From: Anabaena sp. PCC 7108
GTDB taxonomy: Bacteria; Cyanobacteriota; Cyanobacteriia; Cyanobacteriales; Nostocaceae
NCBI RefSeq assembly: GCF_000332135.1
Contig: NZ_KB235896.1
Span: forward strand, 2,057,403 to 2,121,402
Length of the DNA stretch: 64,000 nt
Direction of reading: 5' to 3'
Part shown: positions 28,991 through 34,217 of the stretch, piece by piece
Layout: every line of letters begins with the position of its first letter
Position numbering within the stretch: the stretch's first letter is position 1
Made by a program: the position numbers and the translations under genes
The notes under the pieces: generated by a model
Database searches by the model: none
The model's input: the letters and a program-made list of their open reading frames with translations, nothing else
Told to the model about the DNA's origin: nothing

Positions 28991-31693
28991 TTAGAGTAGG
29001 GTATTAACCACGGAAGAAGGTGCTACCCCATTTTGGGAATCATTGATATTAGTAGTTGCACTTTGTGGCTGGATTTCTTCCTGTACACCGCGCAATTTAA
29101 TTAACTTAATTGCCCGGTTAACGCTTTCTGGCAAAATTACCACCAGACTACCATCAGGAGCCATATCTAAGGCTTTATTAATTGCTTCGGTTTCATCAAG
29201 GATTGATTCAAAACGACAATTAGGCTTGGCTTGAGTAATACCTTGAGTAATCAAATCAGACGCTGAACCACGTAGACGACCTCTAGTGTCATCATCCTCT
29301 TTAATAATGATGTAGTCAAAGATATCTGCTGCTAATTTACCCAGAGTAACAAAATCTTCATCACGGCGATCGCCAGGACCGCCAATTACGCCAATTCTCT
29401 GACCAGTTGTCCAGTTGCGAACAAATGATCCCAAGGCTTCATAACTAGCAGGATTATGGGCATAATCTACCAAAGCGTGGTATTTACCCAGATTAAACAG
29501 ATTCATTCGTCCAGGCGTTTGACTAACTGAAGCGCGGAAAGTCTTTAAGCCGGCACGGATTTGCTCAATAGTGACATTCTGCACGAATGCGGCCAAACTT
29601 GCTGCTAAAGCATTAGCAATCATAAATGGCGCTTTTCCACCCATTGTCAAGGGGATATTTTCTGCTCTTTCTATGCGGTGTGTCCAATCACCTTTGACAA
29701 TTGACAGATAACCATTTTCATAAACTGCTGCCACTCCTCCCTTTTCTATATGCTTTCGCACTAGTTCCGAACTGGGGTTCATGGTGAAGTAAGCAATATT
29801 TGCCTTAGTCTTTTCTGACATGGCGGCCACGCGGTTATCATCAGCATTAAGTACCGCATAACCATCAGGGAATACAGCTTCGGCAACTACACTTTTAAGA
29901 TTGGCTAATTGATCAATGGTTTCTATATCGCCAATCCCCAAATGATCAGCAGCTACGTTCAGCACTACACCGACATTAGCAGATTCAAAACCTAATCCAC
30001 AGCGAAGAATACCACCACGGGCTGATTCTAATACAGCTACCTCCACAGTTGGGTCTTGGAGGATGACGTGGGCGCTTTGAGGTCCTGTATTGTCTCCGGC
30101 CTCTACTAAGTAATCTCCGATATATGTCCCATCTGTAGTCGTATAACCAACCACCTTACCAGTTTGCTTATAAATATGTGCTAACAGGCGAGTAGTAGTA
30201 GTTTTACCATTAGTGCCAGTGATACTGAGAATGGGAATACGGCTAGATTGTTCATTAGGGAACAGCATATTCATCACTGCACCAGCGACGTTGCGGGGAA
30301 TGCCTTGACTAGGGGCAACGTGCATTCGGAAACCAGGGGCGGCGTTAACTTCTACAATTACGCCATCCAATTCTCTGAGGGGACGGCTAATATCAGAGGT
30401 GACAATATCAAGTCCGGCAATATCTAAACCGATAATTTTGACTACCCGTTGTGCCAACCAGCGATTTTCAGGGTGAATTTCGTCGGTGCGGTCTACGGCA
30501 CTACCACCTGTACTCAAATTGGCCGTTGCCCGTAGATAACAAATGGTTCCCTTGGGCGGCACACTGTTGAGATTGTAACCTTGTCTTTCTAGCAGCTGGT
30601 AGCTGGTGCGGTCTAATTCAATTTTGGTGAGGACATTATCATGACCTTCACCACGATTAGGATCAAGGTTTATTTCTTCAATCAGTTCGGCAATGCTGGA
30701 TCTACCATTGCCAACAACATGGGCTGGTACACGTTCAGCCACTGCGACTACTTTGCCATCTACGACTAGTACCCTGTGGTCGCGCCCGACATAATAGCGC
30801 TCCACAATGATAGAGCGGGAAACTTGTCTGGCCATCTCGTATGCCGCTTCCGCTTCATCCCAACTTCTGATATCAATGGTAATGCCGCGCCCATGATTAC
30901 CATCTAGGGGTTTAATAACGATGGGATAACCGCCAACTTGCTCAATGGATTCTTCTAAATCATCCAAGAAGTTGATTACTGTACCTCTAGGTACTGGCAC
31001 ACCATTAGCAGCCAGGATGCGTTTAGTGGCTTCTTTGTCGCAAGCTAGTTCTACTGCCAGAATGCCTGTGTTATCGCTCATTGTGGCCTGCATTCGCTTC
31101 TGGTTAACGCCGTAGCCTAACTGAATCAGAAAGCGTGCAGCTAAGGGCATCCAAGGAATGCCTCTTTTTTCTGCCTCTTTGATAATTGCTTCTGTAGAAG
31201 GACCTAAAGACGCATCACGCAAAAAGTCCTTCAGGTCTTGGATATCTTGTTCTAATTCTGCCTTGGGATAACGACCTCGATCAACAATACTTTGACATAG
31301 CCGAACTGCGGCACGTCCCGCATAGCGTCCAGCTTCCTCATTCAGGTACTCAATTACCACCTGGAAAATTCCAGGTGTAGCAGTTTCGCGCGTGCGACCA
31401 AAACCTACGTGCATTCCAGCTAGTTCTTGGAGTTCTAGAGCTACGTGTTCCACGATATGGCCCATCATTGTGCCTTCTCGTACCCGCATCAAAAAACCAC
31501 CTCGACAGCCAGGCGAACAATAGTGACCTTCCAGACTTGGCAGCGCCTCAACTAATCCTTCATAAAAGCCAGGTATTTCATTCGAGGGCGTTTCGGCAAG
31601 GTTTTCTAGATCGAGGCGCATGACGATCAGCTTGTGGCGTCGAATGCTCCAGTAGTTTGGGCCGCGTAAGGTCTGGATCTTGAGGATTCTCAT
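28991..31693 (-). CDS. cphA: Cyanophycin synthetase
   Basis: The start is set at 31693 because CphA proteins begin MRILKIQTLRGPNYWSIRR; an earlier ATG at 31723 is less likely. The 900 residues comprise an N-terminal domain, an ATP-grasp domain (GYPIVIKPLDGNHGRGITI; VEVNAAPGFRMH) and a Mur-ligase-like domain with P-loop ITGTNGKTTTTRL and DYAHNPASY. It builds cyanophycin, a polymer of aspartate with arginine side chains that stores nitrogen in vegetative cells and heterocyst poles. cphB lies upstream on the same strand, the common cphBA order. Confidence 0.97.
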   Translation of the reverse strand: MRILKIQTLRGPNYWSIRRHKLIVMRLDLENLAETPSNEIPGFYEGLVEALPSLEGHYCSPGCRGGFLMRVREGTMMGHIVEHVALELQELAGMHVGFGRTRETATPGIFQVVIEYLNEEAGRYAGRAAVRLCQSIVDRGRYPKAELEQDIQDLKDFLRDASLGPSTEAIIKEAEKRGIPWMPLAARFLIQLGYGVNQKRMQATMSDNTGILAVELACDKEATKRILAANGVPVPRGTVINFLDDLEESIEQVGGYPIVIKPLDGNHGRGITIDIRSWDEAEAAYEMARQVSRSIIVERYYVGRDHRVLVVDGKVVAVAERVPAHVVGNGRSSIAELIEEINLDPNRGEGHDNVLTKIELDRTSYQLLERQGYNLNSVPPKGTICYLRATANLSTGGSAVDRTDEIHPENRWLAQRVVKIIGLDIAGLDIVTSDISRPLRELDGVIVEVNAAPGFRMHVAPSQGIPRNVAGAVMNMLFPNEQSSRIPILSITGTNGKTTTTRLLAHIYKQTGKVVGYTTTDGTYIGDYLVEAGDNTGPQSAHVILQDPTVEVAVLESARGGILRCGLGFESANVGVVLNVAADHLGIGDIETIDQLANLKSVVAEAVFPDGYAVLNADDNRVAAMSEKTKANIAYFTMNPSSELVRKHIEKGGVAAVYENGYLSIVKGDWTHRIERAENIPLTMGGKAPFMIANALAASLAAFVQNVTIEQIRAGLKTFRASVSQTPGRMNLFNLGKYHALVDYAHNPASYEALGSFVRNWTTGQRIGVIGGPGDRRDEDFVTLGKLAADIFDYIIIKEDDDTRGRLRGSASDLITQGITQAKPNCRFESILDETEAINKALDMAPDGSLVVILPESVNRAIKLIKLRGVQEEIQPQSATTNINDSQNGVAPSSVVNTLL

Positions 31694-31865
31694 GGGAATA
31701 GGTAGATGGAGATTCGGAACCAAAATTCTAGTTTCTTACTGGAATTGACCGCTAAACTGTTTGTCATGAACAGTTTTTTCTTTTCAGATAGTACTCATTT
31801 AATTCTTTTTGCAGCAGTAAATAAATGTGCGGTCAACTCAGTGTAACCTCAGATACTCTATCCCG

Positions 31866-32729
31866 TCAGCTGGAGATCCGATGCACAGCAGGTAATACAG
31901 TACGTTGATATAGATGGAATCGATCTCCGTAACTGAGGATATGTAAACGTAAATTGTGTACTGTTAAAGGCTCATTGGCGCTGACATGAGGTTCGTTGGT
32001 ATGGGTGAGTTCTGTGGGGTCAACAATGGTAACACTGCCTTTGCCCACGACTTGTAGCCAACCATCACGCTCAAATACAGCACAGGTATCTTCGTCAATG
32101 CCAATGCCTAGACGATCAGGATGAGCAGCGATCGCACTTACTAATCTTCCCATGCGATTACGGTTGTGAAAGTGTTGATCTACGATCACTTCGGGAATAA
32201 ATCCCAAACCTGTTGCCATATCGACTAGAGAACGATTTGGTGTTTCACCACTACCACCACCTGCAATCATATGATGTCCCATGACAGCTGCCCCCGCACT
32301 AGTTCCTGCAAGGGTTAGTTGTCCTGCCCTTACCCGTTGTCGGATAATTTCCATTGCTGGTGTATCTGACAGAACTCCACAGAGCCGCAATTGGTCTCCT
32401 CCGGTTAAAAAGACTCCCGTGCAGGCTTCGAGGGCTGCTTTAATCTGGGGATTTTCGCATTGTTCCCGTTCACGAATGTCTAAAATCTCCACCTTTTCAG
32501 CACCCATTTCTTCAAAAATGCGAATATACCGACCACCGATGATAGCGGGTTCGCGGGAGGCTGATGGAATAATTGTAATATACGCCTTGTTAGCGCCAGC
32601 ACGACCAAAAAAAGTTCGTAGGATATCGCGTCCATGAACTTTGTCTTCTGCGCCTCCGATAACCAGAACGGCGGTTTTTGTTGCTTGGGGTGTCCTCATT
32701 TCCAGCGATTTAGCTTTTAATTGCTGCAT
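31866..32729 (-). CDS. cphB: Cyanophycinase
   Basis: The ATG at 32729 follows AGGAGAAACACA and gives 287 residues, the normal length. The serine-protease-like S51 family signs are the nucleophile in LAGTSAGAAVMGHHMI, the GVFLTGGDQLRLCG strand and VDQHFHNRNRMGRL. The enzyme cuts cyanophycin into beta-aspartyl-arginine dipeptides. It is transcribed with cphA, 172 bases upstream of it. The leader is unusually long and structured and holds dispersed repeats, so expression may be controlled there. Confidence 0.95.
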   Translation of the reverse strand: MQQLKAKSLEMRTPQATKTAVLVIGGAEDKVHGRDILRTFFGRAGANKAYITIIPSASREPAIIGGRYIRIFEEMGAEKVEILDIREREQCENPQIKAALEACTGVFLTGGDQLRLCGVLSDTPAMEIIRQRVRAGQLTLAGTSAGAAVMGHHMIAGGGSGETPNRSLVDMATGLGFIPEVIVDQHFHNRNRMGRLVSAIAAHPDRLGIGIDEDTCAVFERDGWLQVVGKGSVTIVDPTELTHTNEPHVSANEPLTVHNLRLHILSYGDRFHLYQRTVLPAVHRISS

Positions 32730-32793
32730 TGTGTTTCTCCTGTCAACAACTTCAGGAGCCATCGCCTTGGACGGTGAGTGCAGCCACACGTGC

Positions 32794-32890
32794 GGTGAAG
32801 CAGCCCGATCTTGGGGTTTCCCCAAGTAGAGGGACTGCTGAACCCGTAAGGGCTTTGCCGCCGAGTGGACTGCCGAACCCAAAGGGGTTT
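32794..32890. repeat. Compound dispersed repeat in cphB leader
   Basis: 32794-32851 matches 37789-37844 in the same orientation: GGTGAA-CAGC, then GGTTTCCCC within an imperfect palindrome, a GACTG-TGAACCCG segment and AAGG. A second half-copy with GGACTGCCGAACCC follows to 32890. G- and C-run palindromes of this kind are a known repeat style in Nostocales. It lies between cphB and the structured RNA-like stretch. Confidence 0.7.
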
Positions 32891-32944
32891 CCCGGCTTTT
32901 GGCGAATGGCGTGTGAATTTAACAAGGTTTAGTAGCTTGTTGAT

Positions 32945-33165
32945 TTTCGCCTTTTGATTCTTCGAGAGGACACTGCTTGACGCACACGATACCTCAGCCG
33001 AATCATGTCCGTTGCTGTTCCTCATCGCCACCGCCTTGTTTTTCACCTATCCACTTGCTTCAGACTGGCTTTCTTATTGCTTGGGGTTAGGTTTCCCCTC
33101 TGGATTGGGGCAAGCAGGTCTTGACACTCTTCATTCTGAGGCTGGCTCGACGCATCCTGGAAGTT
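32945..33165 (-). ncRNA. HEARO/omega-RNA-like structured stretch
   Basis: Read on the minus strand, this GC-richer block has GCGTCGAGCCAGC near its 5' end, then GTGTCAAGACC. A nested stem follows, in which GCTTG and CAAGC (33111-33115 and 33079-33083 on the plus strand) enclose CCCC/GGGG (33107-33110 with 33095-33098), and then AATAAGAAAGCCAG. It lacks a sensible protein and recalls HEARO (IscB/IsrB-associated) RNAs of cyanobacteria; the recognition is from memory. No IscB or IsrB gene is present, so it would be a stand-alone copy or relic. The rest of the 747-base gap (32730-33476) holds repeats and the trmD promoter. Confidence 0.42.
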
Positions 33166-33476
33166 GTTAACTTTGGTGGGATTATTAATTTAAATTTAGT
33201 TGTGACAATATTTAAACATAAATTAAGTAATTAGAAAAACTTTTGATCCCACCAAAAAACCAATACTTCTGGTACTTTTAGATACTATTGATGAAGTTTA
33301 ACTCCTGTTTTACCTCTTTCTGACTTGAAGGGATCTGGGAATATGGATCTGTGAACCGGTGAAAATTATACTAATCACTGCTCAGTTATTACTCGTTCCC
33401 CGCCCGAACTGGGATAATTTAGCAATTTACGTTAAATATTCCCATCTAAGATTACTGTCCTTGCATACGAATTACT

Positions 33477-34217
33477 GTGCGTTTTGATATAGTTACGCTT
33501 TTTCCTGAATGTTTTCTCTCGGTTCTGAGTTCTGGTCTTTTGAGCAAAGCTTTGGCTAAACAGATTGCTCAAGTACATCTTGTCAACCCTAGGGACTTTA
33601 CCACTGATAAACATCGGAAGGTAGATGATGAACCTTATGGCGGTGGCGTAGGTATGCTAATGAAGCCTGAGCCGATTTTTGCTGCTGTGGAGTCGCTGCC
33701 GATTCTACCCCGTCGAGAAGTGATTTTGATGAGTCCCCAAGGTCAAACGATGGATCAGCCCTTGCTGCGCGAATTAGTGACCAATTACGACCAATTGATT
33801 GTGATTTGTGGACATTATGAAGGGGTTGATGACAGAGTACTGAATTTAGTTACTCGTGAGGTGTCTTTAGGCGATTTTATTCTCACTGGTGGAGAAATTC
33901 CTTCTATGGCTTTAATTAATGGGGTAGTCCGTCTACTACCAGGAACTGTGGGGAAGGTAGAATCTCTCAAAGCCGAAAGTTTTGAAGAAGGGTTATTGGA
34001 TTTTCCCCAATATACTCGTCCAGCAGATTTTCGTGGGTGGAAAGTTCCAGATGTGTTATTGAGTGGTAATCATGCAGAAATTGCTAAGTGGCGTTTCCAA
34101 CAACAAATTCAACGTACTGCTTCCCGTCGTCCCGATTTGCTCTCAAAATGGCAAGAAGAAAGGGAAGAGGTAACAGGTGACAGAGAGGAAAACAGGGTGC
34201 AGAGGAGAAATGACTAA
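33477..34217 (+). CDS. trmD: tRNA (guanine-N1)-methyltransferase
   Basis: Translation starts at GTG 33477 ([11 protein letters not shown], the fixed TrmD start). The 246 residues hold the trefoil-knot SAM site: [29 protein letters not shown], and [11 protein letters not shown]. The enzyme methylates G37 next to the anticodon, preventing frameshifts. The last 15 residues are an Arg/Glu-rich extension ([19 protein letters not shown]) that looks like a translated repeat. The stop overlaps the ispF start (TAATG), so both are co-translated. Confidence 0.96.

Follow-up and report, generated by a model that had tools for sequence, protein, structure and literature searches.

Upstream of the cyanophycinase gene cphB lies a leader that is conserved, restricted to the heterocyst-forming family and tied to one locus, and it is moderately likely that this leader acts in cis to control translation of the cyanophycin operon, with a riboswitch-like architecture that is absent from Rfam. 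Heterocysts hold nitrogen in a dynamic store, cyanophycin, which CphB breaks down to supply the filament, and control of this store is usually discussed in terms of NtcA transcription and PII. If the reading given here is true, the Shine-Dalgarno (SD) switch contained in this conserved leader would mean that control is also exerted after transcription and would offer a directly testable candidate for a sensor, and a well-studied group would have yielded a new cis-regulatory RNA that Rfam lacks.

The starting point was a first-pass annotation of the window, i.e. the whole stretch of 64,000 nt that was analysed (C2:2057403-2121402), which had described the block at 32945-33165 as structured and non-coding, likened it to the HEARO/omega RNAs of IscB/IsrB nucleases, and offered a leader element of cyanophycinase as a fallback. 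The block, located between cphB on the minus strand and trmD on the plus strand (33477), is the middle of a cphB leader of approximately 440 nt on the minus strand, and it is the fallback that is well supported, for that strand. All of the motifs listed for the block are present, namely GCTTG at 33079-33083 with CAAGC at 33111-33115, CCCC at 33095-33098 with GGGG at 33107-33110 (plus coordinates), and a GCGTC-AGCC-type start, found as GCGTCGAGCC on the minus strand at 33153-33144. A real structured element also exists; however, it is on the opposite strand, is larger and has a different outline, and the block alone is not unusually structured. On the plus strand, the block folds at -52.6 versus a shuffle mean of -59.5 (z +1.5), with 189/200 shuffles folding at least as well, and on the minus strand its z is 0.0; a plus-strand structure was rejected, its folding not being above shuffles. 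The block's limits miss both closing arms of the minus-strand element (Table 1).

Table 1. Features of the cphB leader and its surroundings (window coordinates), together with the HEARO matches found in the same genome (contig coordinates, C2)
Feature	Position	Strand	Remarks
cphA (cyanophycin synthetase)	28991-31723		after cphB
cphB (cyanophycinase), 287 aa	31866..32729	minus	ATG at 32729; ORF list
SD AGGAG of cphB	32737..32741	minus	7 nt before ATG, directly after P1 3' arm; sequence
Alternative SD-sequestering hairpin CUCCUG(AAGUUGUUGA)CAGGAG	32737..32758	minus	about -7.9 kcal/mol, predicted; leaders with insert
P1 3' arm CCUGAAGUUGUUGAC	32742..32756	minus	near-invariant in 93 aligned leaders
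Variable insert between inner core and P1 3' arm	32757..32918	minus	absent in sister genomes L002/L004
P2 3' strand CUGAGGU	32991..32997	minus	consensus and helix count
P3 3' strand GACAU	33005..33009	minus	consensus and helix count
P4 3' strand UAGGU	33045..33049	minus	consensus and helix count
P5 3' strand CAAGC (annotated as GCTTG on plus)	33079..33083	minus	helix count
P5 5' strand GCUUG (annotated as CAAGC on plus)	33111..33115	minus	helix count
P4 5' strand ACCUG	33115..33119	minus	consensus and helix count
P3 5' strand GUGUC	33123..33127	minus	consensus and helix count
P2 5' strand GCCUCAG	33136..33142	minus	consensus and helix count
P1 5' arm GUUAACAACUUC(C)AGG	33156..33171	minus	predicted extreme mRNA 5' end; anti-sequestor
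Sigma-70-type promoter TTGTCA-16-AATAAT (10/12)	33181..33208	minus	promoter scan; conserved across family
Putative NtcA-like GTN10AC site (GTTTTTCTAATTAC)	33229..33242	minus	conserved upstream box; sequence
HEARO match 1, 157 bits	C2:3922285		beside RRXRR frame of 444 aa (ORF at C2:3922526); span C2:3922285-3923053
HEARO match 2, 54.5 bits (below Rfam cut-off)	C2:277090		beside RRXRR frame of 438 aa (ORF at C2:276467); span C2:276467-277303

In the aligned intergenic region, the conserved blocks of the minus strand are an upstream box and a promoter-like site, followed immediately by GUUAACAACUUCCAGGAUGCAUC and finally by CCUGAAGUUGUUGACAGGAGAAACACA-AUG at cphB. The promoter-like site was also recovered by an unsupervised scan, and its position would place the start of transcription at approximately 33172-33174, such that the block would belong to the leader at the 5' end of the cphBA mRNA, transcribed leftward. 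AGGAG or a near variant is retained in most leaders. Among 30 checked genomes, cphB was present in 27, and trmD and cphA were nearby at nearly all of the loci read, also outside the family. No intrinsic terminator was found on the minus strand in the leader before cphB, and attenuation by such a terminator was rejected.

The predicted mRNA 5' end, GUUAACAACUUCCAGG, just downstream of the conserved promoter, pairs with CCUGAAGUUGUUGAC, which abuts the SD of cphB. In its consensus form, this closing helix (P1) has 15 bp with a bulged C. The 113 leaders hold 23 distinct P1 arm pairs, and all 23 are predicted to pair; since P1 is mostly invariant and covariation is scarce, the proposed pairing, a few genomes aside, rests mostly on complementarity and not on covariation. 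Two loci depart from the usual arrangement. In L022, ~280 extra bases separate the conserved promoter from the 5' arm, and the arm would not be the mRNA 5' end there unless a second start exists. L026 (genome G018) lacks most of the core through a natural deletion, its leader body being down to 151 nt with P1 kept, and ~170 nt are inserted after the SD.

Within P1, the family consensus has three successive helices, P2 (GCCUCAG/CUGAGGC), P3 (GUGUC/GACAY) and P4 (ACCUG/YAGGU), and then P5, all of which can be proposed with moderate confidence from the aligned sequences. In the 23-sequence core alignment, 81.3 % of P2-P5 cells are paired, as opposed to 26-41 % for slid partners, and double-change cells number 18 versus 7.7 in shuffles (0/500). 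Taken whole, the minus-strand leader together with the beginning of cphB (33173..32700) folds at -165.5 versus -140.3 (z -4.3; 0/100 shuffles). For 16 diverse leaders, the RNAalifold consensus has a z of -8.1 on the leader strand, or -4.65 for the inner part without P1, with weaker values for the reverse complement of the same leaders (-4.5, and -2.3 without P1). A tree-based, R-scape-like covariation test of all column pairs yielded nothing significant, clade structure being dominant, and default RNAalifold predicted zero pairs on the core alignment. Because the all-pairs test was null, the case is built on counts per helix, z-scores of the consensus fold and the P1 arms that re-pair. A candidate pseudoknot, AGCCAG/CUGGCU, was rejected, as it is 82.6 % paired yet no better than shuffles. 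The insert listed in Table 1 has one 32-nt end that is a dispersed repeat, with three further copies in the genome (91-94 % identity), and the insert occurs in a 22-leader arm class in which P1 and the SD hairpin are both predicted to be stronger.

The 3' arm of P1 has a second predicted partner. In leaders with the insert this is the hairpin given in Table 1, and in genomes lacking the insert the 3' end alone is predicted to fold as UUC-A-CCUG(AAGUUGUUGA)CAGG-A-GAA at about -4.8 kcal/mol, burying the SD. Folding predictions show P1 and the SD hairpin to be mutually exclusive thermodynamically, the two sharing that 3' arm. For full leaders (n=79), the predicted mean P1 probability is 0.87 and the SD is unpaired at 0.84; P1 is predicted to be formed in 70/79 leaders and has a low probability in four. 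When the leaders lack their first 12 nt (5' arm lost), the SD is predicted to be accessible at about 0.38-0.39 instead of 0.84, whereas deletion of 12 nt elsewhere leaves it at 0.84 and shuffling of the 5' arm gives 0.37. By these deletion and shuffle results, the 5' end of the mRNA is predicted to act as an anti-sequestor that frees the start site of the first gene on that mRNA. Mutually exclusive folds of the type found in riboswitch expression platforms are thus predicted, though not in the clade without an SD. In that Dolichospermum-type clade (L012, L019, L126-L137), UCCCUC stands in place of the AGGAG after the P1 arm, and CCGGGA in place of CCAGGA in the P1 5' arm; UCCC could pair with GGGA, a possible alternative switch. 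Since the clade keeps P1 and has lost the SD, the SD switch in this form cannot work there. The CCUG/CAGG of the SD hairpin could also arise incidentally, from two sequences that are each conserved for a reason of their own.

What is found at the locus is what is expected of a cis-acting leader, namely an unchanging place immediately ahead of one and the same gene and conserved secondary structure on the mRNA strand, and translation is probably what the leader controls. For the start of transcription, switching in vivo, the direction of control and any ligand, we infer the following scheme. The 5' end of the RNA and the sequence directly before the SD of cphB would form P1, enclosing the nested arm P2-P5, and P1 and the short SD-hiding hairpin would compete for the same 3' arm, each excluding the other. 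With P1 formed, ribosomes would start on cphB; were P1 opened, or the 5' end bound, processed or missing, the hairpin would form and translation would drop. The enclosed body would be the site where a signal acts, whether a nitrogen-status metabolite, a protein or a small RNA. Nitrogen-status metabolites would be natural candidates, because the gene mobilises a nitrogen store and glutamine riboswitches are used elsewhere in cyanobacteria (PMC6316151). A more specific proposal, that the leader is a new heterocyst-family riboswitch class that senses such a metabolite (arginine, beta-aspartyl-arginine, glutamine or similar) and controls cyanophycinase translation via the 5' end/SD-hairpin switch, is tentative and, at present, unlikely; among known aptamer classes the leader finds no place, as no Rfam model matches it.

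The predicted formation of P1 in most leaders (70/79) would also suit a structured but constitutive leader, in which P1 guards the 5' end or keeps the SD open for mRNA stability or translation enhancement, without regulation. The body between the arms is, moreover, variable, accepts inserts of >100 nt and is mostly deleted in L026. However, P2-P5 are kept beyond chance and the core is recognizable by a model family-wide, neither of which a mere stabilizer would need, and in L026 the usual SD-ATG arrangement is gone as well. An unregulated leader is, on this evidence, rather doubtful, although it is the alternative that survives best.

The few genomes in which P1 has changed bear on whether the arms work as RNA at all, since both arms are near-invariant in sequence and the nitrogen promoter region is rich in transcription factors, as would fit a reading in which the arms are transcription-factor DNA sites, inverted copies of GTTRACAACTTC, used for example in looping. 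In L160, both arms have changed, with GUUAACAAC(GAAG)CCGGAA facing UUCCGGUUGUUGAC, and the native duplex (-15.9) is stronger than either arm swap with the consensus partner (-11.3 and -13.9). In L150/L153/L156, CAGGAUG is replaced by GGUGGCUG, with re-pairing of GGUG with CACC in the distal part, and in L157 the register of P1 is shifted with pairing kept. Such coordinated arm changes are not expected of two DNA-protein sites; it is complementarity, not a site, that the re-paired L160 and L150/L153/L156 preserve. Additionally, the arm has a position fixed relative to the SD and not to the promoter, the insert of L022 lying between promoter and arm, and folding is better for the leader strand than for its complement. 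DNA sites in place of an RNA helix are accordingly improbable.

The cis-acting reading is also supported by the distribution of the element. When 60 related genomes were searched with the DNA, 31 matched, every one a member of the window's family, and 30/30 of the fetched loci are the cphB-trmD interval. In an order-wide sample of 391 genomes (71 of the window's family and 320 others), the 5' arm pattern occurs in 59/71 family genomes; three weak places outside the family (L115-L117, 3 mismatches), none with a 3' arm, were taken as chance. Among named genomes, the pattern was found on 84 contigs, all from Nostocales-type organisms by title. A covariance model built on the enclosed core detected 61/71 family genomes and 0/320 others of the order, with one locus per genome, two genomes reporting the same locus twice. 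The element is single copy in its own genome and was never seen away from cphB in the genomes searched; a dispersed element was rejected on the ground of one locus per genome. Synteny of trmD-cphB-cphA reaches beyond the family, where the leader arms are absent, and L161, from another family, has 39/42 bases of the promoter box without conserved P1 arms, from which the promoter appears to be older than the leader. Both L155, with an in-frame stop in cphB, and L152, from a reduced genome, have lost the promoter and 5' arm, and this apparent decay of the leader together with the gene is counted as support for the leader reading.

A 15-bp helix that closes the element, along with a promoter of its own, would also be compatible with release of the leader from the mRNA, for example through RNase III cleavage at P1, to work in trans as a small RNA. 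This, too, is improbable, given that the minus strand has no terminator before cphB, that the arms touching the SD are the most constrained parts, and that the element keeps to cphB. The P1-P2 junction contains a conserved ATG (window 33150-33154 and homologues), which opens a short frame, MHRASLRKKR, in many species. The suggestion that a basic leader peptide (MHRASLRKKR...) from this ATG couples arginine supply to cphB draws on the occurrence of the ATG within the first 30 nt in 98/105 leaders, with several Arg/Lys codons after it. However, there is no codon periodicity (variability 1.10/1.66/1.35, second positions being the most variable), the frame shifts, the ATG is lost in a clade, and lengths range from 2 to 173 aa. 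Codon-level selection was not seen, the peptide was rejected as very improbable, and the first-pass annotation's description of the block as non-coding is thereby borne out.

The reading of the block as a HEARO/omega RNA, in contrast, was refuted. No Rfam family, HEARO included, matched anywhere in the 64,000-nt window at gathering thresholds, and HEARO (RF02033) was not found in the region 32600-33600 at a permissive E of up to 10. The annotation had correctly noted that no IscB/IsrB nuclease is near the block, an RRXRR (PF14239) ORF being absent nearby; elsewhere in the genome there are two RRXRR (IscB-like) ORFs, each with its own HEARO match, both at least 1.8 Mb from the cphB block (Table 1). 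The 5' regions of IscB-type nucleases are the known home of HEARO RNAs (PMC9755519), and as the genuine HEARO RNAs of this genome sit by their nuclease, the cphB block does not belong with them. A variable guide segment would also be at odds with the leader 5' end, whose sequence hardly varies within the family. Thus, while IscB-like proteins and HEARO RNAs do exist in the genome, a HEARO/omega RNA lacking its nuclease has next to no likelihood for a block that has no model match, the wrong context and strand, and one fixed locus.

Compared with the HEARO/omega RNAs of IscB/IsrB, then, the cphB element is similar by eye in a handful of short GC stems but differs in having neither a covariance match nor an RRXRR ORF nearby, and it differs from a mobile guide RNA in being single-copy and fixed at one locus. 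Neither Rfam nor the papers searched yielded a description of this conserved cphB leader. Also close is the promoter region of cphB1 in Anabaena/Nostoc PCC 7120, whose NtcA-dependent promoter of non-canonical structure upstream of the gene (PMC3898017) may be shared, although in the literature searched no conserved structured leader is described for it. The cyanobacterial glutamine riboswitches (glnA/type 1 and DP/type 2, as well as the gifB leader) are also structured leaders in nitrogen metabolism (PMC6316151); however, their models have no match in the window, they are reported mainly with DUF4278 genes and not with cphB, and they are widespread, whereas the element described here is confined to one family. 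In relation to translational riboswitches in general, the cphB leader is a candidate that matches no Rfam riboswitch model and is limited to one family and one gene, and its body is less conserved than typical aptamers. What it shares with them is the 5' leader of a metabolic operon, a closing helix and an SD hairpin that are predicted to use one strand and exclude each other, and a conserved body enclosed between the arms.
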